Assembly (NCBI GenBank): GCA_032622095.1
Contig: CP136061.1
Span: 13,779,287 to 13,843,286 of the forward strand
Direction: 5' to 3'
Source: Siphonodentalium dalli
Lineage: Eukaryota; Mollusca; Scaphopoda; Gadilida; Siphonodentaliidae
Length of the DNA: 64,000 bases
The notes beneath the pieces are model-generated. The model ran no database searches, had not been told where the DNA came from, and was given only the letters and a program-made list of their open reading frames with translations. Each line of letters starts with the position of its first letter. The stretch's first letter is position 1. Both the position numbers and the translations under genes were made by a program. Shown one piece after another: positions 5,714 to 55,736 of the stretch.

Positions 5714-5745
<32 letters not shown>

Positions 5746-7740: not shown

Positions 7741-7877
7741 CGACGACCACCTGGTCAAACTACACACACGTACCAAGTTTCGTGCCGGTCGGTCGAGAAT
7801 CGTAGATTTGTATAAATGACATACATACATACAGACAGACATACAGACAGAGGTCTTCAAAATATATATGAGATATT

Positions 7878-8284
7878 TATATATTGGTATAGTAAGAGTA
7901 AATAGGTCATTGTCGTCACATGTTCTTGTATTGGGTATTCAGTTTCACGAAACGTATTTTTCGTACCCGATGTTGCTGTTTAATTCCAGATGCTTGCATC
8001 CGATCACATGTCTACGGGAGAGTCATTTGTAAAACTGCAATTGCTACCTCGTCTATGTTTTATCGGCGACTTTTGACGCTAATAAATTGATAATTGCTAT
8101 AACATAAACCCACAAACGTCATGCTGTGTATCCAAAAAGACGAATGACCAAAGCTGGGTTCCAAACACACATATATTCAGATATTATGCGACAATGACTC
8201 CGTTAGCGATAGTAAGACAGCGCATAACATATATATTGATCCACGGCTGGACCAAACTTACTACAAAGTGAACCATTCGTTATA
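7878..8284. other. Unassigned sequence
   Basis: AT-rich single-copy-looking DNA between the Helitron-like array and the ~280-bp repeats. I see no open frame, inverted repeat or RNA gene in it. Confidence 0.6.
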
Positions 8285-27390: not shown

Positions 27391-28201
27391 CTGGAATGCG
27401 GAACTTAAGAAATCGGATTTCTTTCAAACCTTTCGTACGCGATTGTGCAAATAGAACCAAGCATTCTCCCTGATTATTAGATAGTAAATTGACATTCATT
27501 ATAATTTGTAAGGGTATCGCATATCACATTTTAGTTTTAGTAGTACCGTGGCGGAGAATATCTCGTTACTTGCAGCGAGAAATACAAAACAAGTATTCAT
27601 CAGTAATATGACTATACGCTAGCGCAATAACGAACCAAAGCTAAACTACCCTCACGAGGGTAGTTGCAGCTTTAATATATTTTTTTGTATCAAAATCAGT
27701 TTATGGATTCCCATTCCCAACAAATAATATTCACATAAGTCTATGTTTCCTGTGTCGATTATCAGTATAATTACACTCTGTACACAACGGTTCGTCGAAA
27801 GAATGGACGACAATCGAAATTTCGAGTGTAAATTAGGCCAATCGTACTTATGGGTAGTCTTGATTGACAGCTAGACTATATAGGGTATAAACTACTAACA
27901 TCAAAGTGAAAAAGTTATACCTTGTCGAGAGGGGAATGTCAACCTTTTTACTGAATTTAAGCAATACATTTATTGACGTTGGGTGAGAGCTGCGACTGAG
28001 ATTCTCTATGGAGAAGAGTGTCCATTTCATAGCTGTTCATTTCATTCATAAAATGTCACCAAAATCGACGAACAACATCATCGTGTAACTTTTCCCATTG
28101 ATCGAGTTTGCCTGAACCTGCATGAATGTAGCTTCTGCTTTGTTCATAATTATGTGTTTCCCTTCGATTCCAGAAATAGTATGATATTTATGGATTATCA
28201 C

Positions 28202-29650: not shown

Positions 29651-31439
29651 TATTATATAATTATATAACTTTTTCAGAATCAATTCACATGACAAGAACA
29701 ATAGCAACCATTCATTAACTCAAAGTGGTGAAATGTGTGTAACAGTAAACCAGCAAGTGATCCAGACAGACATACTGATGGACAAAACCAAACCACTGAT
29801 AGTTATTCAGACCAAATATCCGGGTACCGCCGTTTAACAAGAGATTTTAACCAAATATTTACCATATAAATTCCCATTGCGAGCTCTTTATGAATACTGA
29901 ATAGAACATGGTGTGAAATTAACTAGTGATGGCTACGAGCAAATTTTACCTATTCACAATACAGAACGTTCATAGCACTGATTGACACAAAAGCTTATAT
30001 TTTGGTACTAATACGTGTTAACCGTATTCGTGAATAAATCGATTTGCCATTGATCTATTTGAATGATGTTTCATGTCACCAAGATAGATGAGAGTGGATG
30101 AATTTAGTGTCGACTTGTTTTTGCTCCTTCAAAAATTGGCAGATGCTTCGGCGATCAATCCATTACCGTTCAGTACTTCTGAGTAGCTATATGAACTATA
30201 CTACTGGAAGTCGCATGATTTTCGCGAAAAACTGGTGTTCCTCAAAATTTCACCTTCATGGTATACTGTAATTTATGCACACCGACTGTTACCTATTCAC
30301 GACCAGAGCAAAGCCTAAGCGCGCTGAGTGGGGTCGCGATAAATACATGTAGTGTTAAATATATTCTTGGCGTGCCTGCCTCCCTAAACATAGTTGGCAG
30401 TGTTATGCAATTTTATGTCTGATATCACGATAACTTGATCAAACATCAAACAGTTGCATTACTGTCTGGTATATGGATCTCTCGAAACAATATAACGATA
30501 GACTTAAAAAACAGGTTTGGCCGTTGTTCACGTGTTACGGCCCTTGTTATTTTTTTATTTAATTATTTAAAGCTAGTTGATGAACATGAACGCGATAACT
30601 CGAACAAACTTCAACCGGTGTCATTCATATCTGGTGAAATGATCTGTCACAACAATATCTCGATCGAGGTTTGTCCCATGTGTACCCTGACTTAGTTTGT
30701 CTATTGTTTAGCAATTTTATGACCGTCATTGCAATTTTAGTGATTCTCAGTCGGACGGATTCTCTCTAATGGACAGAAATACTCGGCGAGCACCAAATTC
30801 GATTCTCAACCCTTGTTTTATGTTTTTGCTGCATTTGTAATATCTATGCAGCAGCTAAATATTTTTTCTGCTGTATATCATCTTTATGTTGCTGTATCCA
30901 TATAATACCATAACCTATCCATATATGACATGAATAGCAATTCAAAAAGATTCCATTAAACAAAAGTAATCATATACAACAATTCTAATTTGTAATGTAT
31001 TTATGTACATGTGTACATATATAAATAATACACATTCCACATGAACCCCTTGGGGTGACAAATGGAATGTTTGTCAGTCTACTGATGAATCGATTCTTTT
31101 CAGTTGAGTCATCTGTATGAGGGTGTCCCCGCCAGTTTCTAATACTATACGGTGGATGATTCGGGTGATTTTGAAGTGGTACTCTGGATTCATACCCCTC
31201 TGTTGACTATAGTACTCTGGATTCATAGAGTATGCCAATTGTAACCGTTATTCAGGATTCAACAACAATGCTTGTATGCAGCTTGTAAGCACCAGATTGT
31301 TCAAATGTAGATTATTTCATAGCCAGAATTATATAGTGTGATAAAAGTTAGTCTCATACCTCTTGGCGTGTTGAAGTTATATACATTACTTGTAAAATAA
31401 CCATGAGAGAATACACTTCTTGGTTTCTTAGGCCAACAC
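29651..31439. other. Unassigned AT-rich DNA
   Basis: No gene is supported. A small imperfect direct repeat of about 75 bp (CGATAACTTGATCAAAC... and CGATAACTCGAACAAAC..., near 30,428 and 30,593) accounts for the 86-residue frame at 30,435-30,695. Confidence 0.55.
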
Positions 31440-33330: not shown

Positions 33331-34140
33331 TAAAATATGATTTAACACTAGATATTACTCAACATTATTTACTACTAATCAATTCAACTAATCAATTCCA
33401 TAACGTGATTGACTTATGTTTATAATTGTAACCAACGCAGATTGAAATCGGCTCACACAAGTTGGATACAACATGAAATCTACTGCTTGGACGTCTGCAT
33501 ACTGTGAAATATATTTTAGGGAACATGTAATAAATACGGAATATATTACCTGCATAATGTGTCCTATGTTATAAAGTATCCATCTAAAAGTTACCAAGTT
33601 TTGAACTTGTGTACTATGATCTCTGCAAAGCGGTATTCGAGAATTATGGAATGGTAGTGTTTAAGATATTCTGAAGAAATCGTTTATTAGATTGGGTAAA
33701 AATTCTTTATTGAACAATGTATTTTTTCGATGATTTTATGATTTTCGTTCCATTTTCAGGCAGAAATATGCAGCGACAATTCAACAAAACAACACAAGGG
33801 TGCTGTCAATATTGGAAAATCAGAAGATAGGACTCAACTTACCATCATTAAAATAGGTTGGCCAGAGTACATGCTACTCAACTTACACGATGGTACCGCA
33901 CCCGTTCTGGTGCACTATGGTAAGTACCGGTGCCACAGGGATGGCACCAATTGGCACCGCTCATCTATATAATGTTGATACCGCCGACTGTAATTTTAGT
34001 CTTAGAGTCAAGGTTATTTGCAAGACATCTATGGACTTTGAATATAATGAAAATTATTATAATAACTGTAAGGACTCCTCTTTCTCATATACTTATTCAC
34101 AGTAAGCTCTGATTTTTATGCAATCAGTGCTAATCGTTAC
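33331..34140. other. Unassigned AT-rich DNA
   Basis: No open frame of interest. A short tract rich in GGCACC/GGTGCC lies near 33,895-33,965. Confidence 0.55.
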
Positions 34141-34439
34141 ACTTTAAATAAAAACGTAACACTCTTATTGGAAATTTTCGGCCACATGGCCTTCTTCAAC
34201 CAAAACAAGTTATACAGGTACAATTAATATTAATGTTGACTCCAATTTAACAAGTCCGTTTGTTAGTCACACATTTGCTTCGACGGACGGTTGTGCCTCG
34301 GTCGACGATGACGTAATTACATGACGTTCCTTTCACCTGTGCCGTGAATTCGATTGCGAATTCAGTCTATTCGGAATTCGCGTGTCCATTCGCCTGATTG
34401 GTGCCTCTTCCGTCACAAGACGCAACTGTAGTCCACCAT

Positions 34440-34628
34440 TTACCATGTCCAAAACGAACACATTAGGTCACGGGCACAATGTCCATTTGAATTGAAATGA
34501 GAATAAGCAGGCTTCTTAATATTGCCAATATCCCGGATATGTTCTTTCATCCGTTCCCCTAATGTGCGTTCTGTTTCACTTTCACCAATACAAACACCTA
34601 TACCGCATTTCCTACATGACAAACATTA
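34440..34628 (-). pseudogene. GIY-YIG endonuclease fragment of a Penelope-like element
   Basis: About 60 residues read CRKCGIGVCIGESE, then an arginine/glutamate-rich helix (GERMKEHIRDIGN), then HFNSNGH. This matches the order of the GIY-YIG nuclease domain that Penelope-like elements carry after their RT: cysteine pair, YIGE-like strand, RxxEH helix. The tyrosine of YIG is cysteine here. It is truncated at both ends and has no RT nearby. Confidence 0.6.
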
Positions 34629-34751
34629 AACCACATTTTGAGGTTTACAACGTCATATAATTACGCCATCGTCGACCGAGGCACAAGCGTTGAAGCAAAG
34701 TGTGACTATCAAACGGACTTGTTAAATTGGAGTCAACATTAATATTGGTTG

Positions 34752-34757
34752 TACCTG
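34752..34757 (+). repeat. Target-site duplication, left (TACCTG)
   Basis: Exact match to 48,728-48,733. Joining the flanks with a single TACCTG gives a sequence that matches the reverse complement of 34,141-34,262 without a gap. Confidence 0.85.
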
Positions 34758-34984
34758 TGATGATACCCCGCCCGTTTGGTGTCAGTCTAGACAGGTTGAC
34801 CTACATTCTCTGCAGTACATGGAGTTTGACCTATATTCTCCGCCCACGCGTCGGTCTATTTGTATACCGGTTGGACATGTCCGGACATGACCCGCTGGTT
34901 ATATCTAGACTTCTCCATATGCATGGTATATTATCTACATGTATATCACGTGATGATCTCGGTGGGGTAGCTTCAGTCTTGAAT

Positions 34985-35095
34985 GTTAAAGTGACACTAG
35001 GCTCTCAATGGGGATGATTATTAAAGTGACACTCACTATGGATGAATGTTAAAGTAACACATGGCGCACACTGTGGGATAATGTTAAAGTGACAC
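34985..35095 (+). repeat. Subterminal TTAAAGTGACACT repeats, left arm
   Basis: Four spaced copies of TTAAAGTGACACT (one with AGTAACAC) within about 110 bp, close to the element end. Mirrored at about 48,390-48,500. Short subterminal repeats are often protein-binding sites in DNA elements, but here that is only a suggestion. Confidence 0.75.
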
Positions 35096-35097
35096 TC

Positions 35098-35235
35098 GCG
35101 TTGAAAACTTCAAAAATTTCAAAAAGTTCAAAAAGTTCAAAAAGTTCAAAAATTTCAAAAAGTTCAAAAAGTTCAAAAAGTTCAAAAAGTTCAAAAAGTT
35201 CACAAATTTCACAAATTTTCACAAATTTCAAAAAA
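35098..35235 (+). repeat. 9-bp tandem array (TTCAAAAAG), left arm
   Basis: About a dozen units of TTCAAAAAG with a variant TTCAAAAAT. The variant sits at a different unit in the mirrored array (48,250-48,387), although array length is the same. The serine/lysine-rich frame across it is a low-complexity artefact. Confidence 0.9.
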
Positions 35236-35391
35236 CTTCAAAAATTAAACAAAATTCAGGATTTAGTCAAAAATATGGCTTGTTACCATTCATCGGAAAG
35301 CTATGGGGGTACGGTGGTAAGCGCCACCGAAAACAGCAAGTGAGCGAGGGAAAAAAGAGAAAAATAACATGACAAGTGGTACATAGTACAA

Positions 35392-35397
35392 TTTATT
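35392..35397 (-). promoter_or_regulatory. AATAAA polyadenylation signal, left gene copy
   Basis: TTTATT on the plus strand is AATAAA for the minus-strand gene, 8 bases after its stop codon. The mirror is at 48,088-48,093. The sequence matches the canonical signal, but it is so close to the stop that the 3' UTR would be very short. Confidence 0.5.
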
Positions 35398-35404
35398 ATA
35401 TTAA

Positions 35405-36157
35405 CTAGTCACTGTCACTTTCGTCCGAATTGTCATCACTTTCGTCAGATGTGTCATTTGTTTCGTCCATGAACTTTTCTAGCAATGGTCTGTACTTTAA
35501 TATTGACATTTTCACTGCATCACGATCTTCAAAACCATTCTTTATATATTTCTCCACTTTATCCATGACACTGTTGTGTAGAGTACCATTGCGCAGCCAC
35601 ATATTCTTTATTATTGTCCAAGCATAAACATTCATAAATAGCCTCATGCCTTCAGTTTTAAGATCTGTACTTTTAAGGTCCTTGTCAGCTTGTACTTTTG
35701 CCTCTTTTTCTGTCGAGCCATTTTCCATATACGTTTCCACGTTATCACTCCATGCTTCTTGTGCTTTATCTCTACTCTCATCACACAAACTTTTGAAGTA
35801 TTCATCTTCATTCGATTTAATTTTCTTATTCTGACTATCATCCGTGTCTTCAGTTAATTTTCGTTTTAACTTATTTTCTTGACACCAGTTTTTTACGTGT
35901 CTCTGGACATCATGCTGATCTTCGAACAAAAGCCCACAGTCATTGCAAGGGTACGATATGTCTTCTCGAATGCCTATGTTTTTATGGTTTTCTTTATTAA
36001 TTTCATTGATCTCACCAGGTGTCCTTATGTCCTTAGTATAGCCATTATGTTGACCCTGGGGCACAATATAATTATATGTCATGCACTCCCGTTGACCAGG
36101 GAGATCTCTGTCATCATATTTCATCTCATTCCGTTGATCCACGAAAATATTACTCAT
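35405..36157 (-). CDS. 250-residue zinc-finger, acidic-tail protein (left arm, intact)
   Basis: The only sizeable intact frame in the arm, reading outward from the centre. Residues 1-68 are polar. About residues 70-91 form a single zinc finger, CNDCGLLFEDQHDVQRHVKNWC, with spacing C-x2-C-x12-H-x4-C, a C2HC variant of the C2H2 fold. A basic stretch KLKRKLTEDTDDSQNKKIK (a possible bipartite nuclear signal) follows. A helical, charged middle contains EAWSDNVETYMENGSTEKEAK and VMDKVEKYIKNGFEDRDAVKMSILKYRPLLEKF. The last ~18 residues are Asp/Ser/Glu only. This suggests a nuclear nucleic-acid-binding protein. From memory, multicopy invertebrate proteins share this finger-plus-helix layout, but I cannot name the family. 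The start is the first ATG of the frame. No transposase or polymerase motif. Confidence 0.7.
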   Translation of the reverse strand: MSNIFVDQRNEMKYDDRDLPGQRECMTYNYIVPQGQHNGYTKDIRTPGEINEINKENHKNIGIREDISYPCNDCGLLFEDQHDVQRHVKNWCQENKLKRKLTEDTDDSQNKKIKSNEDEYFKSLCDESRDKAQEAWSDNVETYMENGSTEKEAKVQADKDLKSTDLKTEGMRLFMNVYAWTIIKNMWLRNGTLHNSVMDKVEKYIKNGFEDRDAVKMSILKYRPLLEKFMDETNDTSDESDDNSDESDSD

Positions 36158-37549
36158 ATTATAGACTTCCCTTTGAAGACCTTTGTATGTGACAATGATC
36201 CGTAATATTGTTTCTAAGTGACACTGGCCAGTGAAACTGATACTACGGGTATGAACTAGCCAACTTCACATCGTAACAATAATAAAAGGGACACTTCATC
36301 TATATCAGTCTCAAAACGTGTTGGTACACATCTGTGTGGAAACTAAAACCAATCACTCTTCGTCCGTCATCCGTACATAATTGTAATATAATTTTCTCAG
36401 AAACCACGGGATCCCTTTGGCTGAAATTTGGTCTCAACATGGGATCAGAAATTATCCATGGAAGACAACAGTGTCCGTGTGGGGAGAAGCTTCGTAGTGT
36501 TTCGCTGTCGCCATGGTGTTTGTTTGGGTATAGGCATGGGTGGTGAGTGTGGTTCTCATACGGTCTGAACTAGCCTTTACTGACTGAGGTAATTTAGTGC
36601 ACATGTCATCACTTCACTGATAACCATTATATGGTCAAATCCCAACACTATCAAACGCAATGTTTCAATAATGGGTTTTCTTAAAATTTTGACTAAATAT
36701 TGGTTATATTATACGCATCAGCGATCCTTCTTAATAACGCTCTGTATATTTTCAAACGCATTGCACTAAATGGGTTTGGAATAGCCATACAGGAAAGGAG
36801 AAACTGAGGTCCTGGGTAGGTCGACTGCATATAGCAGTATATATGGGGTACAGACATGGACAGCAATGGGTTCCTCGTGGCTTCTGGCCTACACATGACA
36901 TATTAAAGTTAACCACACCCATCGGCGCGCCTTTAATGGGCTATGAAGCGCCATACAGGCTCGAATCATGGCCTTCGCCATGTGTTTCTATTTGAACCCA
37001 CATTAGTAACTAAATAAAATCTTTCTCTCCAGGTTGTTTCACGCCATAACCTTGATTTGGAAAGCTTGAAGGGCTAATTAAGCTTCAATTTAAATCCCAA
37101 CATTATTTGAAGAACGTATCTGGTTAAACATGTACACCATAGTAAGCTCATTTAATTCAAAGAGCTTCACACATAGTCCCACTAGTAATGATGTGTCGTT
37201 ATTTACTGCAGAAATGGTCATATAGAATACAATACAACACATTTTGGTCACATACCTTAAAGGTGCACGTCACTTTCGCAAGATATCGAACTGACCATGT
37301 ATAGAGTGGAATGACATGTCGGGTATCAAATGTATAATCAGTTCCAGTATTTCGTCCATAAGGCAGTTTTGGTTGTAACATCATTGTGTATGACGGTTCA
37401 TTCATATGATACCTTAGCGGTTGCACACGATACTGTCTGTTGTATTTTATGTCTTATATCATGTATATTAATTGCTCCATGGATGGTAGGAGTATGGCAT
37501 TGGTGTCTGGTTCTTCGATGTATTCTAGTCATAGTTCATTCATATTATT
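36158..37549. other. Arm stretch without recognised content (left)
   Basis: About 1.4 kb between the zinc-finger gene and the ~808-bp duplication, mirrored at about 45,935-47,326. It contains several 60-75-residue frames that I cannot link to any family. For the outward genes this is the upstream side, so promoters would lie here, but I see no clear TATA box. Confidence 0.6.
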
Positions 37550-39060
37550 ACTCTAAAATCTCCATTAAATGGAGAAACTAAAGAGCCCATATTATGTAGA
37601 CTAGTGTATAAATACTTACTTCATGCATTATTTTTATCAATTATATGTATTATAACTCCCATCAAGATAGGCTGTTATACAGAGGAAACAAAGCATGTAC
37701 CAAGTGACAGTCTGTACCAAGTGACAGTCTCATGTCACGAAAGGCCTACTATGTGGACACATTTTCTTATCAAAACGCTCTATTATGTAGGGGGTTATCA
37801 ACCATTGGTCTGGAAAAGGCATACGAACGCAAGGCGTGTATACACATTTATTCGATGTACTCTTTAATCGTCGATTTCTCTTTATTGTCGTTAATTTATA
37901 GCATTATTAGTAGGAATCTAAACTCGCCGTTATATTGAGAAAATAATGCGTCAATACCAGTCAATACTGCTTTATTGGCGGTAAATGAAATTATTGAATC
38001 ATGTATCGCAGCTAAACAAGCGAGACAACTGATCACAACTGATTACAAAAATTAGTAATATTTATGAAGCCTTGAGTGGGTTGTAATACACAGTGTGAAT
38101 TTTCATTATTGCTACCATTTAAGGAAACATGCCCCCGATAGGGCTACTATGCGAACACATGTCTATATTAATTTCACATATTCCTTACCGTTCATTCGTA
38201 TATACTCCAAGCTCTCTGTTAATACAGAGGCATCAAAACATTGGTCTGGAAGAGACCTACTATGTGGATGCGTGTATACATATTTACTTGATGTATTCTT
38301 TAATCGTTCATTTCTCTTTATTATCGTTCATTTATAGCATTATTAGAAGAAATTTAGTCTAAAATCTCCATTACATGGAGACAATAAAGAGCCCATATGG
38401 TGTAGACTAATGCATAAATACTTACTTCATGTATTCTTTTCACCAATTATATGTATTGTACATCCTATACATTTAGTCTGTTATACAGAGGAAACAAAGC
38501 ATGTACTACGTGGCAGTTTCATATGACGATAAGACCTACCATGTGAACACATGTGCATATTAATTTCACATATTCTTCTCAAAACGCTCTATTTTATACG
38601 GGGGGTATCAAACATTGGTCTGGAAAAGGCATGCTATGTGGACGCGTGTATACATATTGACTTCATATATGCATTCATAGTTCATTTCTCTTAATTGTCG
38701 TTCATTTAATAGCATTATTAGTAGAAATAGAGTCTAAAACCGTCGGTATATGGAGAATATATAGCGTCAATACTGTTTTATTGTTGGTAACTCAAATTAT
38801 TGCATCATGTATCGCAACTAAACAAGCGAGATAACTCATAAATTCTTAATAGTTCTGATGTCTATGGCAGTTCACACAGTGTATATTTTCATTGTTGTTA
38901 CCATTTTAGTGCATACATTACTGATTTCTGTGTAAGAACGCCGGTCTCCATTGTTGTTATGATTGTGCCTATAACTGTCCATATTCTTAAAGCAAGTACG
39001 GTACCTCTATGTGATATGATCTATAAAAATTTCCATTTTCACAGGTAAATCACGTATAAA
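37550..39060 (+). repeat. ~808-bp direct duplication within the left arm
   Basis: Two diverged copies offset by about 808 bp. Landmarks include AAATCTCCATTA...GGAGA (37,557 / 38,361), GTTATACAGAGGAAACAAAGC (trimmed; 37,674 / 38,479) and ATTATTGMATCATGTATCGC. Mirrored at about 44,424-45,934. No coding role seen. Confidence 0.7.
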
Positions 39061-40189
39061 CGCTCTTTAATGTATAGTTAAACTGAGTTTTCACATGCAG
39101 GGCTATGTCTTTGTGGACTATATACGTGGTATACTTCAGTATATACACGAAGTGAATGTGTTCTAAGTATGCGTATCTGATTTATGTATACGTCCGTGTT
39201 TCTTAAAGCAAATCCAATACATATTAGTGCGTTATATTATGATGTACATTAAGTGCCCTTTTCACTGTTAAATCAAGTAAAAAGGCCCTCTACTATAGTT
39301 AACTATTCAGTTCCACATACGCTATAAGATCTATGGTGGTCCGGTGTGTCTTATCAATATGCCATTATATGCACGAATGTAATGTGTTCAAATATGTGGG
39401 TTATCATGTATACTTTAATGTTAAAGTATATAAGCACTCTTTAAGATATGCATATGCAGAATGTTGCCTCTTTACACTGACAGAAAAAAAAGGAATATAT
39501 AATTTTGAGTACTACTCTTCATAAAACGTTAGAAAACCATAATCTAACAACGAATATCGAAGAACAATGTAATTACTTGGTAAGCATTGTAAATATTTCG
39601 TCTGTTTTAAATAAAATGGAAATATTTCGTCTATTTGAAATACAGTTGGAAGCAACAATCAAGTATTTAAATGAAATTTGGACCAAAATCTTATAATTTG
39701 AGAAAACGTATATAATTTCTATCGAAGTCTTATAATAAAGGAAGGCTTTGTGCGAATCCATTCGGTCTAATGTGTGAATGTGTTCATCATCGCAAATATA
39801 ATGATGCAGAAATTAATATTTCCTAGAATAATGTTAACATAGCTTGTATTTAACCGAAATAATATAGCATTTGAGTTAAAATGTTTCATATTAGGACCAT
39901 AACGAACCAATGCATAAAAATACAATATTTTGTTTTTCATTCTCGATCAAAATAATGCAGGGTTGTCAATTATCAACAAAAAACAAATACTTTGAAACAA
40001 AAACGATGACATAAGAAGGAATATCCAAGAGCTAGTGTGAAAATAACCCTCACATTTATAAAAAAAAACAATAAAATTAAAGTTTCCGAGTAAGTCCTTC
40101 AAATTTATTGAATGTTTTCGTCTATGTTGGATCAAATTTGACACAAAAATCAATTAGCTCACTAACAGTTCGCGCAATATCTCATATTT
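39061..40189. other. AT-rich arm stretch without recognised content (left)
   Basis: About 1.1 kb, mirrored at about 43,295-44,423. Frames of 60-70 residues occur but show no domain, and their presence in both arms only reflects the palindrome. Confidence 0.6.
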
Positions 40190-41330
40190 TGAGAAAACGT
40201 TTGCAATTTTAGACAACAATATTGCTAGTGAAGGTGAATATTTCATCCTGGAACTCATGAAATATGATAAAAATAGATGTAAAGACACTTCACGAGCCCT
40301 CATATATTTGAGTTATGAACATAAAGTCATCTCATAGTGCCATTGTACCCCATAATTTGGTCAGGAGAAATATGTATTTCATATTTGACCCTTCATCTGT
40401 GGTAAAAAATGAATTAAGGGACATGGGAGTGGTGTCCCTAGACATTAACCTAGAGCATAAATTGACTCAATTATGCAATTTTAGGCAACATTCTTGCCAG
40501 GGAAAGTGTATATTTCATGTTGGAACTCATCCAATGTGATAAACATGCATCATAAGACACTTAATGAGCTCTGATGACTTTGAGTTATGACAACAACGGC
40601 ATCTCATACTAGATTGTAAGCCATAATTTGGTCAGGAAAAGTGTAAATTTCATATTTTATCCTACATGTGTTTTAACAATCAATGTAATTACACCCCATC
40701 GGTCGCCTAGACACAGCGTAAATGTTCTCAAGTTTTCAATTGTAGGCCACAATGTCGGCAGTGAAGGTAAACATTTCATGTTGGAACCCATGAAATGTGA
40801 TAAAATGGATAAAAAGACACTTCCTGAGTCCTTATGACTGAGTTATGAACATAAAGGGAACTCATAGTGTATTGTAGGTCATAATTTGGTCAGGAAAATT
40901 GTAAATTTCATGTCTTAAGCTCCATGTGTTTAAAAAATATATGTAATTACAACCATTGGGTCCCTAGAGATCAATCCACAGTCCATATGTAGTCCATATG
41001 CAATTTTAGGGAACAGTTTTGCTAGTGAAGGTGAACATTCCATGCTGGAACTCATGAAATATGATAAAAATAGATGAAAAGACACTTTCTGAGGCCTTGG
41101 TCGGGAGAAATGTGTATTGTATTTTGACCCTTGATGCGTGGTAGCAATCAATGAAATTACACCCCACGGTATCCTCAGATATGAAGCAACATCATAAATG
41201 CACTCAGTTTTTGGCAATTTAGACAACATTGTTGATAGGGAAGTTGTACATGTCATGTTGGAACTGGTGAAATGTGATAATAATTGATCAAAAGACACTC
41301 GATGAGCCCTGATGGGTTTCAATTATGGTC
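40190..41330 (+). repeat. Diverged ~265-bp tandem repeats, left arm
   Basis: About five units, starting near 40,201, 40,479, 40,737, 41,001 and 41,213. They are marked by CAATTTTAGRCAACA, GTTGGAACTCATGAAATGTG and AAAGACACTT. Mirrored at about 42,154-43,294. The arrays face each other across the centre, with the zinc-finger fragment between array and spacer in each arm. Confidence 0.8.
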
Positions 41331-41596
41331 ATAAAGGCATATGATAGTGTCATTATACAACGGGGAAATTTGTGAAGCGCTAACAAAGCGTATCTGCACG
41401 GTGTTATACGAATCAAAATGATCCTGATATAAGAAATGCAATCTAGATCATACTCAGTATCTTCGTATCGACTGAATATATCGTTATTCGATGGTGTTCC
41501 TGACATACCTCCGTCTTTACTTTTCTTATGCTTTTGTAGATTGTAGTTCGACGATAATATCTTTCTGCACAAATGGCACCCGTGTATTGTCTCGAA
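41288..41596 (-). CDS. Zinc-finger fragment near the centre, possible exon (left arm)
   Basis: Exact mirror of 41,888-42,196, reading outward on the minus strand. The predicted residues are identical. The two copies are head-to-head, with about 290 bp of arm and spacer between their starts, so any promoter in that central stretch could serve both. Confidence 0.35.
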   Translation of the reverse strand, partial: FETIHGCHLCRKILSSNYNLQKHKKSKDGGMSGTPSNNDIFSRYEDTEYDLDCISYIRIILIRITPCRYALLALHKFPRCIMTLSYAFMTIIETHQGSSSVF

Positions 41597-41727
41597 TCAT
41601 GGGAAGAACTATCGTCCTTATACCAGCGAAAAGATGAGCAAATATGGTGTGGTATTATAAACTCGCCGCGTTCGTACCTCTATTTATCGTTTAGAGTAAT
41701 TGTTCTTAGATAAAAAAAATAGGCGCG

Positions 41728-41756
41728 GCGGCAGTGGGGATGAGGGGGGCCGCACG
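41728..41756. other. 29-bp spacer at the palindrome centre
   Basis: G-rich spacer between the arm ends AGGCGCG and CGCGCCT. GCGGC at its left and GCCGC near its right extend the pairing around a 16-base loop, AGTGGGGATGAGGGGG. A short loop joining two long arms is what strand snap-back and self-priming would leave. Confidence 0.8.
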
Positions 41757-41887
41757 CGCGCCTATTTTTTTTATCTAAGAACAATTACTCTAAACGATAA
41801 ATAGAGGTACGAACGCGGCGAGTTTATAATACCACACCATATTTGCTCATCTTTTCGCTGGTATAAGGACGATAGTTCTTCCCATGA

Positions 41888-42196
41888 TTCGAGACAATAC
41901 ACGGGTGCCATTTGTGCAGAAAGATATTATCGTCGAACTACAATCTACAAAAGCATAAGAAAAGTAAAGACGGAGGTATGTCAGGAACACCATCGAATAA
42001 CGATATATTCAGTCGATACGAAGATACTGAGTATGATCTAGATTGCATTTCTTATATCAGGATCATTTTGATTCGTATAACACCGTGCAGATACGCTTTG
42101 TTAGCGCTTCACAAATTTCCCCGTTGTATAATGACACTATCATATGCCTTTATGACCATAATTGAAACCCATCAGGGCTCATCGAGTGTCTTTTGA
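41888..42196 (+). CDS. Zinc-finger fragment near the centre, possible exon (right arm)
   Basis: The frame is open from just after a TGA at 41,885 to a stop at 42,194. It encodes GCHLCRKILSSNYNLQKHKKSKDGG, which has the C-x2-C and first histidine of a C2H2 finger but no second histidine at the normal place. There is no ATG before the finger. GAG|GTATGT at about 41,970 is a strong splice-donor match directly after it. It could be an internal exon of a gene that continues outward, perhaps to the 250-residue frame, or a relic. The mirrored copy is identical. Confidence 0.35.
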   Translation, partial: FETIHGCHLCRKILSSNYNLQKHKKSKDGGMSGTPSNNDIFSRYEDTEYDLDCISYIRIILIRITPCRYALLALHKFPRCIMTLSYAFMTIIETHQGSSSVF

Positions 42197-43294
42197 TCAA
42201 TTATTATCACATTTCACCAGTTCCAACATGACATGTACAACTTCCCTATCAACAATGTTGTCTAAATTGCCAAAAACTGAGTGCATTTATGATGTTGCTT
42301 CATATCTGAGGATACCGTGGGGTGTAATTTCATTGATTGCTACCACGCATCAAGGGTCAAAATACAATACACATTTCTCCCGACCAAGGCCTCAGAAAGT
42401 GTCTTTTCATCTATTTTTATCATATTTCATGAGTTCCAGCATGGAATGTTCACCTTCACTAGCAAAACTGTTCCCTAAAATTGCATATGGACTACATATG
42501 GACTGTGGATTGATCTCTAGGGACCCAATGGTTGTAATTACATATATTTTTTAAACACATGGAGCTTAAGACATGAAATTTACAATTTTCCTGACCAAAT
42601 TATGACCTACAATACACTATGAGTTCCCTTTATGTTCATAACTCAGTCATAAGGACTCAGGAAGTGTCTTTTTATCCATTTTATCACATTTCATGGGTTC
42701 CAACATGAAATGTTTACCTTCACTGCCGACATTGTGGCCTACAATTGAAAACTTGAGAACATTTACGCTGTGTCTAGGCGACCGATGGGGTGTAATTACA
42801 TTGATTGTTAAAACACATGTAGGATAAAATATGAAATTTACACTTTTCCTGACCAAATTATGGCTTACAATCTAGTATGAGATGCCGTTGTTGTCATAAC
42901 TCAAAGTCATCAGAGCTCATTAAGTGTCTTATGATGCATGTTTATCACATTGGATGAGTTCCAACATGAAATATACACTTTCCCTGGCAAGAATGTTGCC
43001 TAAAATTGCATAATTGAGTCAATTTATGCTCTAGGTTAATGTCTAGGGACACCACTCCCATGTCCCTTAATTCATTTTTTACCACAGATGAAGGGTCAAA
43101 TATGAAATACATATTTCTCCTGACCAAATTATGGGGTACAATGGCACTATGAGATGACTTTATGTTCATAACTCAAATATATGAGGGCTCGTGAAGTGTC
43201 TTTACATCTATTTTTATCATATTTCATGAGTTCCAGGATGAAATATTCACCTTCACTAGCAATATTGTTGTCTAAAATTGCAAACGTTTTCTCA
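42154..43294 (-). repeat. Diverged ~265-bp tandem repeats, right arm
   Basis: Mirror of 40,190-41,330. The mirrored 130-residue frame at 42,162-42,554 is a reading through these repeats and shows no domain. Confidence 0.8.
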
Positions 43295-46200
43295 AAATAT
43301 GAGATATTGCGCGAACTGTTAGTGAGCTAATTGATTTTTGTGTCAAATTTGATCCAACATAGACGAAAACATTCAATAAATTTGAAGGACTTACTCGGAA
43401 ACTTTAATTTTATTGTTTTTTTTTATAAATGTGAGGGTTATTTTCACACTAGCTCTTGGATATTCCTTCTTATGTCATCGTTTTTGTTTCAAAGTATTTG
43501 TTTTTTGTTGATAATTGACAACCCTGCATTATTTTGATCGAGAATGAAAAACAAAATATTGTATTTTTATGCATTGGTTCGTTATGGTCCTAATATGAAA
43601 CATTTTAACTCAAATGCTATATTATTTCGGTTAAATACAAGCTATGTTAACATTATTCTAGGAAATATTAATTTCTGCATCATTATATTTGCGATGATGA
43701 ACACATTCACACATTAGACCGAATGGATTCGCACAAAGCCTTCCTTTATTATAAGACTTCGATAGAAATTATATACGTTTTCTCAAATTATAAGATTTTG
43801 GTCCAAATTTCATTTAAATACTTGATTGTTGCTTCCAACTGTATTTCAAATAGACGAAATATTTCCATTTTATTTAAAACAGACGAAATATTTACAATGC
43901 TTACCAAGTAATTACATTGTTCTTCGATATTCGTTGTTAGATTATGGTTTTCTAACGTTTTATGAAGAGTAGTACTCAAAATTATATATTCCTTTTTTTT
44001 CTGTCAGTGTAAAGAGGCAACATTCTGCATATGCATATCTTAAAGAGTGCTTATATACTTTAACATTAAAGTATACATGATAACCCACATATTTGAACAC
44101 ATTACATTCGTGCATATAATGGCATATTGATAAGACACACCGGACCACCATAGATCTTATAGCGTATGTGGAACTGAATAGTTAACTATAGTAGAGGGCC
44201 TTTTTACTTGATTTAACAGTGAAAAGGGCACTTAATGTACATCATAATATAACGCACTAATATGTATTGGATTTGCTTTAAGAAACACGGACGTATACAT
44301 AAATCAGATACGCATACTTAGAACACATTCACTTCGTGTATATACTGAAGTATACCACGTATATAGTCCACAAAGACATAGCCCTGCATGTGAAAACTCA
44401 GTTTAACTATACATTAAAGAGCGTTTATACGTGATTTACCTGTGAAAATGGAAATTTTTATAGATCATATCACATAGAGGTACCGTACTTGCTTTAAGAA
44501 TATGGACAGTTATAGGCACAATCATAACAACAATGGAGACCGGCGTTCTTACACAGAAATCAGTAATGTATGCACTAAAATGGTAACAACAATGAAAATA
44601 TACACTGTGTGAACTGCCATAGACATCAGAACTATTAAGAATTTATGAGTTATCTCGCTTGTTTAGTTGCGATACATGATGCAATAATTTGAGTTACCAA
44701 CAATAAAACAGTATTGACGCTATATATTCTCCATATACCGACGGTTTTAGACTCTATTTCTACTAATAATGCTATTAAATGAACGACAATTAAGAGAAAT
44801 GAACTATGAATGCATATATGAAGTCAATATGTATACACGCGTCCACATAGCATGCCTTTTCCAGACCAATGTTTGATACCCCCCGTATAAAATAGAGCGT
44901 TTTGAGAAGAATATGTGAAATTAATATGCACATGTGTTCACATAGTAGGTCTTATCGTCATATGAAACTGCCACGTAGTACATGCTTTGTTTCCTCTGTA
45001 TAACAGACTAAATGTATAGGATGTACAATACATATAATTGGTGAAAAGAATACATGAAGTAAGTATTTATGCATTAGTCTACACCATATGGGCTCTTTAT
45101 TGTCTCCATGTAATGGAGATTTTAGACTAAATTTCTTCTAATAATGCTATAAATGAACGATAATAAAGAGAAATGAACGATTAAAGAATACATCAAGTAA
45201 ATATGTATACACGCATCCACATAGTAGGTCTCTTCCAGACCAATGTTTTGATGCCTCTGTATTAACAGAGAGCTTGGAGTATATACGAATGAACGGTAAG
45301 GAATATGTGAAATTAATATAGACATGTGTTCGCATAGTAGCCCTATCGGGGGCATGTTTCCTTAAATGGTAGCAATAATGAAAATTCACACTGTGTATTA
45401 CAACCCACTCAAGGCTTCATAAATATTACTAATTTTTGTAATCAGTTGTGATCAGTTGTCTCGCTTGTTTAGCTGCGATACATGATTCAATAATTTCATT
45501 TACCGCCAATAAAGCAGTATTGACTGGTATTGACGCATTATTTTCTCAATATAACGGCGAGTTTAGATTCCTACTAATAATGCTATAAATTAACGACAAT
45601 AAAGAGAAATCGACGATTAAAGAGTACATCGAATAAATGTGTATACACGCCTTGCGTTCGTATGCCTTTTCCAGACCAATGGTTGATAACCCCCTACATA
45701 ATAGAGCGTTTTGATAAGAAAATGTGTCCACATAGTAGGCCTTTCGTGACATGAGACTGTCACTTGGTACAGACTGTCACTTGGTACATGCTTTGTTTCC
45801 TCTGTATAACAGCCTATCTTGATGGGAGTTATAATACATATAATTGATAAAAATAATGCATGAAGTAAGTATTTATACACTAGTCTACATAATATGGGCT
45901 CTTTAGTTTCTCCATTTAATGGAGATTTTAGAGTAATAATATGAATGAACTATGACTAGAATACATCGAAGAACCAGACACCAATGCCATACTCCTACCA
46001 TCCATGGAGCAATTAATATACATGATATAAGACATAAAATACAACAGACAGTATCGTGTGCAACCGCTAAGGTATCATATGAATGAACCGTCATACACAA
46101 TGATGTTACAACCAAAACTGCCTTATGGACGAAATACTGGAACTGATTATACATTTGATACCCGACATGTCATTCCACTCTATACATGGTCAGTTCGATA

Positions 46201-47326
46201 TCTTGCGAAAGTGACGTGCACCTTTAAGGTATGTGACCAAAATGTGTTGTATTGTATTCTATATGACCATTTCTGCAGTAAATAACGACACATCATTACT
46301 AGTGGGACTATGTGTGAAGCTCTTTGAATTAAATGAGCTTACTATGGTGTACATGTTTAACCAGATACGTTCTTCAAATAATGTTGGGATTTAAATTGAA
46401 GCTTAATTAGCCCTTCAAGCTTTCCAAATCAAGGTTATGGCGTGAAACAACCTGGAGAGAAAGATTTTATTTAGTTACTAATGTGGGTTCAAATAGAAAC
46501 ACATGGCGAAGGCCATGATTCGAGCCTGTATGGCGCTTCATAGCCCATTAAAGGCGCGCCGATGGGTGTGGTTAACTTTAATATGTCATGTGTAGGCCAG
46601 AAGCCACGAGGAACCCATTGCTGTCCATGTCTGTACCCCATATATACTGCTATATGCAGTCGACCTACCCAGGACCTCAGTTTCTCCTTTCCTGTATGGC
46701 TATTCCAAACCCATTTAGTGCAATGCGTTTGAAAATATACAGAGCGTTATTAAGAAGGATCGCTGATGCGTATAATATAACCAATATTTAGTCAAAATTT
46801 TAAGAAAACCCATTATTGAAACATTGCGTTTGATAGTGTTGGGATTTGACCATATAATGGTTATCAGTGAAGTGATGACATGTGCACTAAATTACCTCAG
46901 TCAGTAAAGGCTAGTTCAGACCGTATGAGAACCACACTCACCACCCATGCCTATACCCAAACAAACACCATGGCGACAGCGAAACACTACGAAGCTTCTC
47001 CCCACACGGACACTGTTGTCTTCCATGGATAATTTCTGATCCCATGTTGAGACCAAATTTCAGCCAAAGGGATCCCGTGGTTTCTGAGAAAATTATATTA
47101 CAATTATGTACGGATGACGGACGAAGAGTGATTGGTTTTAGTTTCCACACAGATGTGTACCAACACGTTTTGAGACTGATATAGATGAAGTGTCCCTTTT
47201 ATTATTGTTACGATGTGAAGTTGGCTAGTTCATACCCGTAGTATCAGTTTCACTGGCCAGTGTCACTTAGAAACAATATTACGGATCATTGTCACATACA
47301 AAGGTCTTCAAAGGGAAGTCTATAAT

Positions 47327-48080
47327 ATGAGTAATATTTTCGTGGATCAACGGAATGAGATGAAATATGATGACAGAGATCTCCCTGGTCAACGGGAGTG
47401 CATGACATATAATTATATTGTGCCCCAGGGTCAACATAATGGCTATACTAAGGACATAAGGACACCTGGTGAGATCAATGAAATTAATAAAGAAAACCAT
47501 AAAAAACATAGGCATTCGAGAAGACATATCGTACCCTTGCAATGACTGTGGGCTTTTGTTCGAAGATCAGCATGATGTCCAGAGACACGTAAAAAACTGG
47601 TGTCAAGAAAATAAGTTAAAACGAAAATTAACTGAAGACACGGATGATAGTCAGAATAAGAAAATTAAATCGAATGAAGATGAATACTTCAAAAGTTTGT
47701 GTGATGAGAGTAGAGATAAAGCACAAGAAGCATGGAGTGATAACGTGGAAACGTATATGGAAAATGGCTCGACAGAAAAAGAGGCAAAAGTACAAGCTGA
47801 CAAGGACCTTAAAAGTACAGATCTTAAAACTGAAGGCATGAGGCTATTTATGAATGTTTATGCTTGGACAATAATAAAGAATATGTGGCTGCGCAATGGT
47901 ACTCTACACAACAGTGTCATGGATAAAGTGGAGAAATATATAAAGAATGGTTTTGAAGATCGTGATGCAGTGAAAATGTCAATATTAAAGTACAGACCAT
48001 TGCTAGAAAAGTTCATGGACGAAACAAATGACACATCTGACGAAAGTGATGACAATTCGGACGAAAGTGACAGTGACTAG
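47327..48080 (+). pseudogene. Frameshifted twin of the 250-residue gene (right arm)
   Basis: Mirror copy of 35,405-36,157, reading outward on the plus strand. One extra A (six A rather than five, near 47,500-47,510, in the codons after NKENHK) shifts the frame before the zinc finger, so the first frame ends at 47,545. The rest stays open from an upstream ATG at 47,469 to the same stop, giving a possible 203-residue product that keeps the finger and tail. A sequencing or assembly error in the A run would produce the same picture. Confidence 0.65.
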
Positions 48081-48087
48081 TTAATAT

Positions 48088-48093
48088 AATAAA
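48088..48093 (+). promoter_or_regulatory. AATAAA polyadenylation signal, right gene copy
   Basis: Canonical AATAAA starting 8 bases after the stop at 48,080. Mirror of 35,392-35,397. Confidence 0.5.
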
Positions 48094-48249
48094 TTGTACT
48101 ATGTACCACTTGTCATGTTATTTTTCTCTTTTTTCCCTCGCTCACTTGCTGTTTTCGGTGGCGCTTACCACCGTACCCCCATAGCTTTCCGATGAATGGT
48201 AACAAGCCATATTTTTGACTAAATCCTGAATTTTGTTTAATTTTTGAAG

Positions 48250-48387
48250 TTTTTTGAAATTTGTGAAAATTTGTGAAATTTGTGAACTTTTTGAACTTTT
48301 TGAACTTTTTGAACTTTTTGAAATTTTTGAACTTTTTGAACTTTTTGAACTTTTTGAACTTTTTGAAATTTTTGAAGTTTTCAACGC
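48250..48387 (-). repeat. 9-bp tandem array, right arm
   Basis: Mirror of 35,098-35,235 with the variant unit moved by one position, which is one of the two differences I can see between the arms. Confidence 0.9.
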
Positions 48388-48389
48388 GA

Positions 48390-48500
48390 GTGTCACTTTA
48401 ACATTATCCCACAGTGTGCGCCATGTGTTACTTTAACATTCATCCATAGTGAGTGTCACTTTAATAATCATCCCCATTGAGAGCCTAGTGTCACTTTAAC
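48390..48500 (-). repeat. Subterminal TTAAAGTGACACT repeats, right arm
   Basis: Mirror of 34,985-35,095. AGTGTCACTTTAA is the plus-strand reading. Confidence 0.75.
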
Positions 48501-48727
48501 ATTCAAGACTGAAGCTACCCCACCGAGATCATCACGTGATATACATGTAGATAATATACCATGCATATGGAGAAGTCTAGATATAACCAGCGGGTCATGT
48601 CCGGACATGTCCAACCGGTATACAAATAGACCGACGCGTGGGCGGAGAATATAGGTCAAACTCCATGTACTGCAGAGAATGTAGGTCAACCTGTCTAGAC
48701 TGACACCAAACGGGCGGGGTATCATCA

Positions 48728-48733
48728 TACCTG
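48728..48733 (+). repeat. Target-site duplication, right (TACCTG)
   Basis: Exact partner of 34,752-34,757. The flank that follows (TATAACTGGTTTTGGCTGAA) resumes the Penelope-like sequence. Confidence 0.85.
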
Positions 48734-48800
48734 TATAACTGGTTTTGGCTGAAGAAGACCATGAGGTCGAAAATTTCCAATAAGAGTGTGACGTTGTTAT
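48734..48800 (-). mobile_element. Remainder of the Penelope-like end repeat
   Basis: Matches the reverse complement of about 34,141-34,208 (GAAGAAGACC, GGTCGAAAATTTCC, AATAAGAGTG). It is the far side of the host element that the palindrome split. Confidence 0.75.
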
Positions 48801-49489
48801 TTGTTGGATCACCATGAAGTCCCTAGGGCTAGACTATCTATTGTATTAGTTACCCTTTAAGACTAAGAGAAAACTGCTTCCTACAAACTGCCAATAATCT
48901 GCTCGCGAGTCCATGTATAGGTTGATGTTACTAATTAGCAACGTCCACCTATGCACAGTTGATATTCTAACAATTTACTGTGTCAAATTTGGAATTTAAT
49001 TTCACGTACACCTAATTTCTATTAAATGTCACGTGTATTCGAAATATAACACATTTATGGATGCGTTAAATTTTACTTATACGTGCAATTTATGTATAAA
49101 TTATATTCGAGATAACACATTTATGGATGTATTTATATCAATAATACGTGTTGTTTACTATAAAAGTAACATATGCCAATGATATGCATCTTTACTATCA
49201 GCTTAATCCATTATAATAGACGGCATAATCTATTTCACTCAATCATATATATGCTTGGTAGGTAATTGTAAGATATTTATATATCTGAAAATTGAGGGAA
49301 ATATGTAACGTTGGTACTATAAACTGAAAACTGCAAAGTCGTTAACCCCTGGAAAATTTAAAGAGTAAATGAAAACTAGAGGTCAGATTCCATCTCATGT
49401 GAGTGTTATGCGTATATGTGTATTCCTCTTCATGCGAATGCACATTGGTGTTTTGTGATCCGATGTGGACTTGCATTGACATTTCTAAA
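48801..49489. other. Unassigned AT-rich DNA
   Basis: No gene seen. There are weak internal similarities such as AACACATTTATGGATG, present twice near 49,048 and 49,112. Confidence 0.55.
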
Positions 49490-49895
49490 TCTAATATATA
49501 TTTTGGGACATCTGTCTGTCTGTCTGTTTGCCTGTTAGCTATGGCCGGGAAAACTGCTGGACGGATTTTGAGGACATTTGATACATATGGGTACTTTTGT
49601 CCAGGGAGTGTTTTGGACGGGTCAAATCGTGACCCCTGACCTGTCCTTGACCTTCAAAATGGTCAATCCATGTCAAATCGGGTAGAACAGACGGATTTCC
49701 ACGAAATTTGATACCTAGGGGTACTTTGTCCGGGGTGTGTTTTGGACGGGTAAAACGTGACCCCGACCTGACATTGACCTTTAAAATGGTCAGATCAAGG
49801 TCAAATCGAGTAAAACGGACGGATTTCGACGAAATTTGATACCTAGGGAAACTTTTGTCCGGGGAGTCTTTTGGACAGGTCAAATCGTGACAATA
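49490..49895 (+). repeat. Helitron-like fragment with TTGACC units
   Basis: Starts with TCTAATATATATTTTGGGAC and a CTGT tract, then about three ~128-bp units with TGACCTTGACCTTCAAAATGG and TGTCCGGGGAGTGTTTTGG. It has no hairpin/CTAG end, so it is 3'-truncated. Confidence 0.6.
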
Positions 49896-51204: not shown

Positions 51205-51238
<34 letters not shown>

Positions 51239-52886: not shown

Positions 52887-55736
52887 TTGATGGTCCCATA
52901 CAACCCTGAACACCCACAATCACTAATTGACCACATTGTCATTCCCCGGTGCAAACTTGACCTTGTGAATAGAGTAGGAATAATTGAAGATGAGGCTCTT
53001 AATACCTCAAACCACAGGCCAGTTTTCTGTTCGATGGAATTCAACTATCAGGGTAGCGCACATCTAAATGATCATAACAATATTGTCAACTGGTCAAAGG
53101 TTAATCTAGATGCATATCAAGAAGTGGTTCGGAATAAACTGCACACAGTCAATAGATGCATATCGAGCATATCCGACGTTGACGCACTATTTTCGAAACT
53201 AGTCGACATTCTTCTCTCTGCTTCTAAGGAAACAGAGAAAAAGACAACTAAACGGAAGAAATTCACGAAGTCCTACTGGAATTCTGAATTGAAATGCTTG
53301 CATGGTGAAATGCGTCAACGCCGGAAATGCTGGATATAAAAGGGGCGATCAAAAACGATTGACAATCCAACATTTCGAGAATATAGAGATTCTAAACAAA
53401 TATTCCGAAATCGTCACCGTACAGCAGTGTTGGATTCCCAAACAAAATTAATAGAGAACATAGAATATCTCGCTAAAAACAACCAACCCGCTTTCTGGAA
53501 AGCAATTAAACTCCCAAATAAGTGTGGTGTGAACCCTGGGTCAGAATTAAAGTTTGACAACAAAATGTGCAGGGACCCTCAAGACATTGTACTAGGTTGG
53601 AACAAATATTTTCAAAACCTGTATAGTAGGTGTCGTCATAATATCCCCTCTTTTGAATCGTCGGTGAACGACACCATTGCCCAGATAAGTGAAATGTCTG
53701 ACCAAGAGCGTAGAGATAACTCACTGTGTAAGGACGTCACAGGTGCAGAACTAAGTGCTTGCGTTAAACGGCTGAAGCGGAACAAAGCTAGTGGGCACAC
53801 CAATATTGTAAATGAACATCTAATTCATGCACCGGATGCTCTACTACCCGTCCTGTGTCTGCTATTCTCAAGTATGCTCAGATACGAATTTATTCCATCT
53901 AAAATGAAAATGGGAATAATAATTCCGATTTTCAAGGGTGACCCAAAGCCTGTCGACAACCCAGATAGTTACAGAGCTATAACTTTACTGCCATCAATGT
54001 ATAAACTTTTTGAGATGGTTATTTTGGACAGGTTTCTTAAATGCGATGTGTTCGCCGGTTTTCCAAATTGTCTGCAGAATGGCTTCCAGAAAGGGGTTGG
54101 CTGCACAGTAACCTCATATATACTCCAAGATGTCGTCGAATATGCACATCTCAACAATTCTAAGGTATACGCCGCATTTTTGGATTCACAAACAGCTTTT
54201 GACAGAGTATGGCACGAAGGACTACTCTATAAATTAATGCAGAAAGGCCTTGGAGGGCGTATGCTTAGAGTTGTTGCTGCCATGTACTCGGAGATCAAAA
54301 GCAAAGTGCGATATGCTGGCTATTTTTCAGAACCGTTCACCATAGAGCAAGGTACAAGACAAGGAGATGTTCTGTCCCCTTTCCTGTACCTTATCTATAT
54401 AGACGACCTCCTACAGGAACTCTCATTATCACCGGAGGGCGCTCATATAGATTCAATCTCGTGTTCATGTCCGACAACTGCCGACGATGTCTGCGTTCTT
54501 TCTTACTCAGAAGGTGGCTTAAAAAGTCTTCTGAATAAATGTTATAAGTACAGCAAAACGTGGAAATTTGAATACTCATTTGCTAAAAGCGAAATTATCG
54601 TCTTTGACACTCGTAAACGCTCAAACGCTCCAGCGAGAGAACATGAATGGTTTCTCGGACTGAACACTCTGAATGAAGTCAAAGACGTTATTCACCTTGG
54701 TATCCCTCAAAATAATCGGTCTGATAGATCTCGAAATATTGACAGAGCATGTGAAATGCTAAGAAGGACATTCTTCGGTGCATGCCGATCGCCAATCACC
54801 AAATTCCTGACTCCTTCGTCTGCTCTTGAAATTTTGAAATGTGTAGTAATCCCCAAGGCATTATGTGGATGTGAAATGTGGTATGGCCTGACAAATACAC
54901 AAGTTCTGCAACTTGAGAGAGTCTATCGTATGTGTATAAAACATATTCAATGTCTGCCTACTAGAACAAGTACAGAACTTTCACTGTCATTACTTGGTTT
55001 AACACCACTGCATGTCGAAGTAGACCGGAAAAAACTTTTATTCTTGGGAACACTAATAAATATTCCAAACACTCATCGCGATGCTCTAAGAGTGTTTCTG
55101 TTCAATGTTCAGGGCCACCTCCTCTATAAACGGCCCCTCTCTGGCTTTGCGAAGGAAATATTCACACACCTGCACGCATATGATCTCATCGATTACCTCA
55201 CAAATTTTATTGATTCTGGGTTCTTTCCATCACAGAAACAATGGAAAGAAATTGTAAAAGAGAAGATCAACAACTTCGCATATCAAGCACTATGGTGTGA
55301 TTTGACAAATGAATCACTGAATTTCTTTAGGATGGTTAAATCCTATCCTATGTCGATCTGGAGAGGCTGGCTACTATGCAGGGAACACCCAAAGTACAAA
55401 TCTAAAGCTCTCTATATGGCAAACATCATCTCCAGAACGACATATGACAACAACGCACTATGCAAGCACTGTGGGTGCCAATACCCTGACCTCATGTCAC
55501 ACATGTACCTCCATTGCTTCTCTCCGCACATACAGGAACTCAGAAATGAATTCTGGTATAAAATCATAAACATATTCGGAATTCCTACATTTTCATTCCT
55601 GGATTTACTCTCGTCGGTAGGATTCCTCACTTATGCATGTGGATGTGGAAGTCATCCTACTCTGGAACTCATGTGTGATGAGAAACGCTTATTTATTCAT
55701 TGTCTCATATTTGTGTGTGTCCTTTGCTCCATCTGA
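52887..55736 (+). pseudogene. LINE ORF2: endonuclease end, reverse transcriptase, CCHC motif
   Basis: Two open pieces in the same frame are separated by one TAA at 53,337-53,339. The first (150 residues) holds SLIDHIVI and LNTSNHRPVFCSMEF, the S-[ND]-H-x-P end of an APE-type endonuclease. The second (769 residues counted from 53,427) holds an RT domain: NKASG and NPDSYRAITLLP (about 178-189), FLDSQTAFDRVWHEG (251-265), EQGTRQGDVLSPFLYLIYID (307-326) and a catalytic TADDVCVL (351-358). A CCHC motif, CKHCGCQYPDLMSHMYLHC, is at 679-697. The usual aromatic residue before ADD is threonine, and the K of SKAFD is replaced. Few disabling changes suggest a recent insertion. Confidence 0.85.

Follow-up and report, generated by a model that had tools for sequence, protein, structure and literature searches.

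A 13,970-bp near-perfect palindrome with the structure of a foldback element interrupts an older repeat in Siphonodentalium dalli

Can a near-perfect palindrome of 14 kb be a mobile element and, if so, of which kind? The question is raised by positions 34758–48727 of a 64,000-base stretch from the scaphopod mollusc Siphonodentalium dalli (GenBank assembly GCA_032622095.1, contig CP136061.1, 13,779,287–13,843,286, forward strand; hereafter, the window), which contains no N. The original prediction described this locus as a near-perfect palindrome with arms of about 6.97 kb, behaving as one mobile element of no known superfamily. The palindrome measures 13,970 bp in total, with arms of 6,970 and 6,971 nt around a 29-nt spacer; the repeat search returned it as two adjoining inverted pairs (35979–41727/41757–47505 and 34758–35983/47502–48727), which are a single structure split by a one-base length difference. 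Arm-to-arm alignment agreed with the prediction, given that only 4 of 6,971 columns differ (99.94% alike). Two of these (T/G and G/T at columns 396 and 405, within a 9-bp tandem array) jointly amount to one swapped unit, the third is an extra T within a T run (column 1222) and the fourth a single C/T difference (column 3784); all four lie in the outer part, and none in the inner 3,187 columns. In the window, the tip TGATGATACCCCGCCCG was confined to the two ends of the palindrome, with up to three mismatches allowed (shuffle mean, 0.08).

TACCTG stands directly outside both palindrome ends, as had been predicted, and comparison of the flanks identifies it as a target duplication. The palindrome interrupts the right end of an older repeat of ~0.68 kb (34146–34757 plus 48734–48802) that has inverted ends of ~185 nt. 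The 75 bases just right of the palindrome match the reverse complement of 34146–34220 at 68 positions, and 34215–34328 is an inverted copy of 34649–34757 (89% identity); when 3 kb of left flank was compared with 3 kb of right flank, the 75-nt inverted match was the single clear one (other matches, E ≥ 0.3). The intact left end of the older repeat reads GTTATA-CAGGTA-CAATTAATATTAATG, and the interrupted right end, read on the same strand, reads GTTATA-CAGGTA-(palindrome)-CAGGTA-CAACCAATATTAATG. Once the palindrome and one CAGGTA are removed, the ~185-nt ends align without a gap at the junction, with substitutions and two small gaps elsewhere. Since the joined flanks align with their intact partner, they are parts of one sequence, the boundaries of the insert are exact and the duplication amounts to six bases, showing that a sequence with the two tips of the palindrome entered this locus by insertion with a 6-bp duplication. 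Because the empty site exists inside the window, edges and duplication are supported without other copies of the element, and such an internal empty site is stronger evidence than two matching hexamers alone; a 21-nt piece of the target repeat end has no further copies in the window. The claim of one mobile element is thus firmer at this locus than the original prediction could anticipate, the empty site being preserved in the other half of the repeat that was hit; this holds for everything except the centre, which is unproved by reads, as the empty site supports the edges only and the middle of the element lies beyond its reach. A 7-bp duplication (TACCTGT) would require the left tip to be short of one base present in the right tip.

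The insertion evidence also bears on whether break repair, and not transposition, could have produced the locus as a segmental inverted duplication, as in the 14.6-kb inverted-repeat insertions at the 2Rj breakpoints of Anopheles gambiae. Those insertions are similar in length, have multi-kilobase arms (5.3 kb) and have no other recognised copy in their genome, but they keep a 4-kb spacer, show a putative 8-bp duplication and are tied to an inversion (PMC1952172; here and below, literature values are those given in the excerpts available of the cited papers). The S. dalli palindrome has base-exact tips and a 6-bp duplication backed by an empty site, and we regard a segmental origin as very improbable.

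The spacer extends the symmetry of the arms as a 5-bp GCGGC/GCCGC stem with a 3-nt bulge and a 16-nt G-rich loop; the whole element consists of inverted repeat plus 29 bp, as originally described. The central hairpin was more stable than all of 200 shuffles (z = −19.9), although the 125-nt stretch that was folded contains perfect arm sequence. Palindromes are prone to mis-assembly, and a real long-ended element could have lost or collapsed its unique middle as reads folded back, leaving inner arms without a single difference. We consider this artefact rather unlikely. Both edges are real, since joining the flanks restores one repeat end. Folding back of a read would also have left mirrored flanks, and those seen here are not mirrors, which removes the simplest form of the artefact. 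The centre is also not a bare mirror point but carries the spacer with its hairpin, and differences as far in as column 3784 suggest distinct data for each arm, although three of the four lie in the tandem array or the T run.

Each arm contains, besides the 9-bp array, two diverged tandem structures (Table 1). Their units are mostly 70–79% alike, with one 89-nt stretch at 91%, against 99.94% between the arms, indicating that the mirror copy is recent or has been kept equal. Searches for functional elements returned little: there were no Rfam matches across 34000–49500 and no tRNA in the window (bacterial-code search). A Pfam scan of all six frames of 34758–41742 (E up to 1), which covered the left arm and, the right arm being the same sequence bar four columns, applies to both, yielded nothing in five frames and one weak finger, that of the gene described below, in the sixth. 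Domains of transposases, integrases, polymerases, ATPases, proteases or capsids were found in none of the six frames; the same Pfam library does recognise a neighbouring reverse transcriptase.

One convincing gene is predicted in each arm, frameshifted in the right. The most conspicuous open frame of the arm spans 286 codons from stop to stop (35408–36265, minus strand), a length reached by none of 300 dinucleotide-preserving arm shuffles (largest, 192). Read from its ATG, this frame encodes a putative protein of 250 aa; the gene looks intronless, has base use that varies with codon position and is followed by AATAAA (35397–35392), which starts eight bases past the stop. The protein matched DUF7128 (E = 6.3 × 10−5) and zf-C2H2 (E = 0.011), both below the curated cut-offs, and, in PDB, eight sequences at E = 0.071–0.97 (three reverse gyrases, the other five zinc-finger proteins); an alignment-free AlphaFold2 prediction had a mean predicted local distance difference test (pLDDT) score of 45.8. 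In the right arm, the frame is broken at the T run (window position 47506); a consensus error is possible, and either arm may show the original state. A 102-aa open frame near the centre (41288–41596, minus strand) was dismissed as a gene, its matches to five Pfam finger families all falling below cut-offs. None of 180 candidate relatives of the 250-aa protein was confirmed at E ≤ 0.001, none of 11 pattern matches in bacterial, archaeal and viral genome contigs was confirmed and there was no pattern match among the viral contigs. The protein database holds some animal sequences but looks mainly microbial, and the negative result carries some weight: the neighbouring reverse transcriptase found 80 proteins there, of which one is aphid-named, one is from a catfish and three are from Candidatus Thiodiazotropha. 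The bins of the latter presumably come from clam symbionts, a hint of host DNA.

By structure, the palindrome is a foldback, or two-terminal-inverted-repeat (two-TIR), element. Wholly palindromic elements are familiar from the non-autonomous DNA transposons of Caenorhabditis and similar palindromic miniature inverted-repeat transposable elements, which are far shorter. Closer in build are Foldback, Tetris and the 2T/2RT forms of Galileo, which are likewise nearly all inverted repeat, lack a transposase, carry tandem repeats in their arms and are flanked by a target duplication (PMC3573991, PMC4079207); here, the arms make up 6,970 and 6,971 of 13,970 nt, and the duplication is accompanied by the internal empty site. 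The differences are in scale, with arms of 6.97 kb compared with at most ~1.26 kb in Galileo (PMC3573991) and no more than 1–2 kb in the foldbacks known up to 2007 (PMC1952172), in the zinc-finger gene carried by the arms here, and in the duplication, which is 7 bp in Galileo (PMC3573991) and 8–10 bp in Tetris (PMC4079207). With 6 bp at this locus, both P-superfamily Galileo and the Mutator-type foldbacks, to which Tetris is assigned, were set aside. The original statement that long inverted repeats in known DNA elements surround a unique centre was too strong, given that some Galileo copies are almost entirely TIR (PMC3573991), and in place of no known kind we find a known structural kind at unusual scale. 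Among the matches listed, from a literature collection lacking most subscription papers, no title or abstract opening reports an element of such size that is palindromic over its whole length, a result that does not prove novelty.

Membership in an enzyme superfamily is not shown by this structure. Protein-based tests fail because the arms hold no such protein, and a non-autonomous member would give the same result. The original verdict of no known superfamily therefore stands in that no enzyme superfamily can be assigned, there being no enzyme in the arms to compare, and goes too far in that a 6-bp duplication with TG..CA ends is common to integrase-like groups (PMC10045372). Polinton, IS3EU and GingerRoot are all credited with 6-bp duplications; termini in complete IS3EU families are invariably TA..TA, unlike the TG..CA found here, which fits the minority form of GingerRoot (TA..TA, occasionally TG..CA; PMC10045372). 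The excerpts on GingerRoot and IS3EU mention no palindromic member. An IS3/IS481-like DDE transposase is absent from the arm, and the enzyme could have acted in trans. Kolobok and KolobokP were rejected, as they need a TTAA duplication and, for KolobokP, long terminal direct repeats (PMC9587614), compared with TACCTG and inverted repeats here.

Mavericks/Polintons share with the palindrome a 6-bp duplication, tips of 6 bp built by repeating a short unit and a total length within the vertebrate range (12,723–24,620 bp; PMC8097293). TIRs of intact vertebrate Mavericks measure 46–1,447 bp (PMC8097293), although for cryptophyte Polinton-like viruses one study puts TIRs at hundreds to thousands of bp and retained those between 100 bp and 8 kb (PMC12220804). 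The tip here is (TGA)2, which has the same form as the named vertebrate motifs (AGT)2, (AG)3 and (AC)3A but other letters and matches none of the three; in vertebrate Mavericks, repeated-unit tips have been explained by jumping-back during protein-primed replication (PMC8097293). The locus could accordingly be read as a Maverick/Polinton-derived satellite replicon, composed of one end with a protein-primed origin plus captured sequence and turned into an inverted dimer by strand-displacement replication, which would replicate from two identical ends with a borrowed polymerase and insert with a borrowed integrase. Defective palindromic adenovirus genomes provide an analogy for such a dimer. The intronless appearance of the single gene, with its poly(A) signal just past the stop, would suit a replicon of this type, as would the length, tips and duplication. 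Taken together, we consider this origin and mode of replication quite unlikely, given that no polymerase, integrase, ATPase, protease or capsid domain was found in the six frames of the arm; that core genes are absent counts for less in a non-autonomous derivative, which would lack them likewise. The repeated-unit form is also shared by 76 of the 4,096 hexamers and by 3.2% of those in the window, making the tip only suggestive, and none of the matches listed describes an adenovirus palindrome in its title or abstract opening.

On balance, we favour a non-autonomous DNA element of the foldback (two-TIR) kind, giant at 13,970 bp, that relied for its insertion on an enzyme supplied in trans. That enzyme, of the DDE type and encoded outside the element, would have recognised both tips and made a staggered insertion, the likeliest kind being a retroviral-integrase-like enzyme of the Maverick/Polinton or GingerRoot/IS3EU group because of the 6-bp duplication and the TG..CA (TGATGA..TCATCA) ends. 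The full-length palindrome probably arose by fold-back copying: before insertion, a broken or single-stranded donor may have folded back at the central GCGGC..GCCGC and been copied to its tip, which would yield two identical tips and doubled cargo, including the outward-pointing zinc-finger gene. The short central hairpin resembles what fold-back priming would leave. Galileo offers a precedent, with TIR-only copies, recruitment of inner sequence into the TIR and the longest TIRs (~1.26 kb) in copies without a transposase (PMC3573991). The same growth of Galileo TIRs, together with the identity of the inner 3,187 columns when all four differences lie outside them, could instead point to a conventional element whose inverted ends were shorter and whose centre was unique, and which inserted here and became a palindrome in place, as a later break in its middle was repaired by arm copying; the evidence from the empty site applies equally to that course of events. 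We think it unlikely, as four differences are too few to establish a gradient from outer to inner arm, and the copying would have had to halt exactly where the copy in the other arm starts.

Several observations weigh against a foldback element that formed before it was inserted by an enzyme in trans. The centre is not proved by reads, and exact fold-back would not leave the 3-nt bulge seen in the central hairpin. The arm has a CpG observed/expected of 0.70–0.87, versus 0.91–1.08 in the non-satellite flanks, which does not suggest very young sequence and is silent on the date of insertion. The 250-aa protein, for which no relative was found, may be part of an autonomous system not yet known. 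The window and the bacterial, archaeal and viral collections yielded no second copy, and no autonomous partner is known: the tip had no 20-nt match in the bacterial, archaeal and viral genome contigs and the arm no match in phage or plasmid collections, negatives that weigh little. An exact 17-nt match in viral contigs was taken as chance, as blastn found no other likeness to the arm and tblastx was blank.

Table 1 Coordinates of the palindrome, its target and its contents (window positions)
Feature	Position	Strand	Basis or remark
Intact left inverted end of older target repeat; empty site, CAGGTA once	34146..34330	+	
Right inverted end of target repeat, inner part, left of insertion	34641..34757	-	
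Right inverted end of target repeat, outer part, right of insertion	48728..48802	-	68/75 identical to 34146-34220
Target duplication TACCTG (6 bp), left copy	34752..34757	+	Flank comparison with empty site
Target duplication TACCTG (6 bp), right copy	48728..48733	+	Flank comparison with empty site
Left arm, tip TGATGATACCCCGCCCG	34758..41727	+	6,970 nt; inverted-repeat search and arm alignment
Spacer, 29 nt, hairpin atop arm stem	41728..41756	.	Repeat search and folding
Right arm, inverted copy of left	41757..48727	-	6,971 nt; 4/6,971 columns differ
9-bp tandem array	35104..35244	.	Left arm; mirror 48241-48381
Diverged tandem duplication, units of 574-594 nt, 74% alike	37548..38909	.	Left arm; mirrored in right
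Diverged tandem units of ~270 nt, mostly 71-78% alike, one 89-nt stretch 91%	40199..41358	.	Left arm; mirrored in right
Putative 250-aa open frame, one C2H2-like finger, acidic tail	35405..36157	-	Reads outward to left-arm tip
Right-arm copy of the 250-aa gene region	47328..48083	+	Frameshifted at T run (47506); no frame spans whole protein

The surroundings look eukaryotic, with long tandem arrays, a reverse-transcriptase frame and few long open frames (only five of at least 150 aa in the whole window). Related tandem arrays with units of ~122–132 bp occur in both orientations at 1–7900, 28200–29660, 49490–49890 and 56680–59280, and CpG observed/expected is 1.43 over 1–8000. The reverse-transcriptase locus (52887–55736, plus strand) comprises a 769-aa frame with RVT_1 (E = 2.6 × 10−23) and, just upstream, a 150-aa frame without a Pfam match; it is probably a non-long-terminal-repeat retrotransposon, because many of the 80 proteins that it matched also carry an endonuclease domain. 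A 322-aa open frame at 59581–60549 (minus strand) has no Pfam match at E up to 1 and may resemble the end of a Penelope-like element protein. Other repeats include two direct pairs of 95–97% identity (21441–22760/24409–25881 and 23039–23682/27571–28204) and an inverted pair (6007–6390/16873–17256; 384 nt, 98% complementary, 10.5 kb apart), with 2558–2792 matching the same copy. An unbroken run of 33 C lies at 51206–51238.

The foldback structural kind was already known; what is new here is the empty site inside the window. If the centre holds in single reads, a near-perfect palindrome of 14 kb would have entered a chromosome naturally and as a unit, despite the instability generally ascribed to such structures. 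The arm length of elements composed of inverted repeat only would then rise from the 1–2 kb of the sources cited, as excerpted, to 7 kb, and the locus would provide a testable case for the growth of TIRs through fold-back copying. A further idea, which we consider quite unlikely, is that such sequences form a family of palindromic mobile replicons. These would be inverted dimers derived from a protein-primed Maverick-like element, retaining an origin at each of two identical ends, relying on borrowed enzymes to replicate and insert, and equipped in both arms with a zinc-finger gene of their own, as a chromosomal counterpart of defective palindromic virus genomes. If transcribed through its centre, the element would yield a 7-kb double-stranded RNA that may act against its own family.

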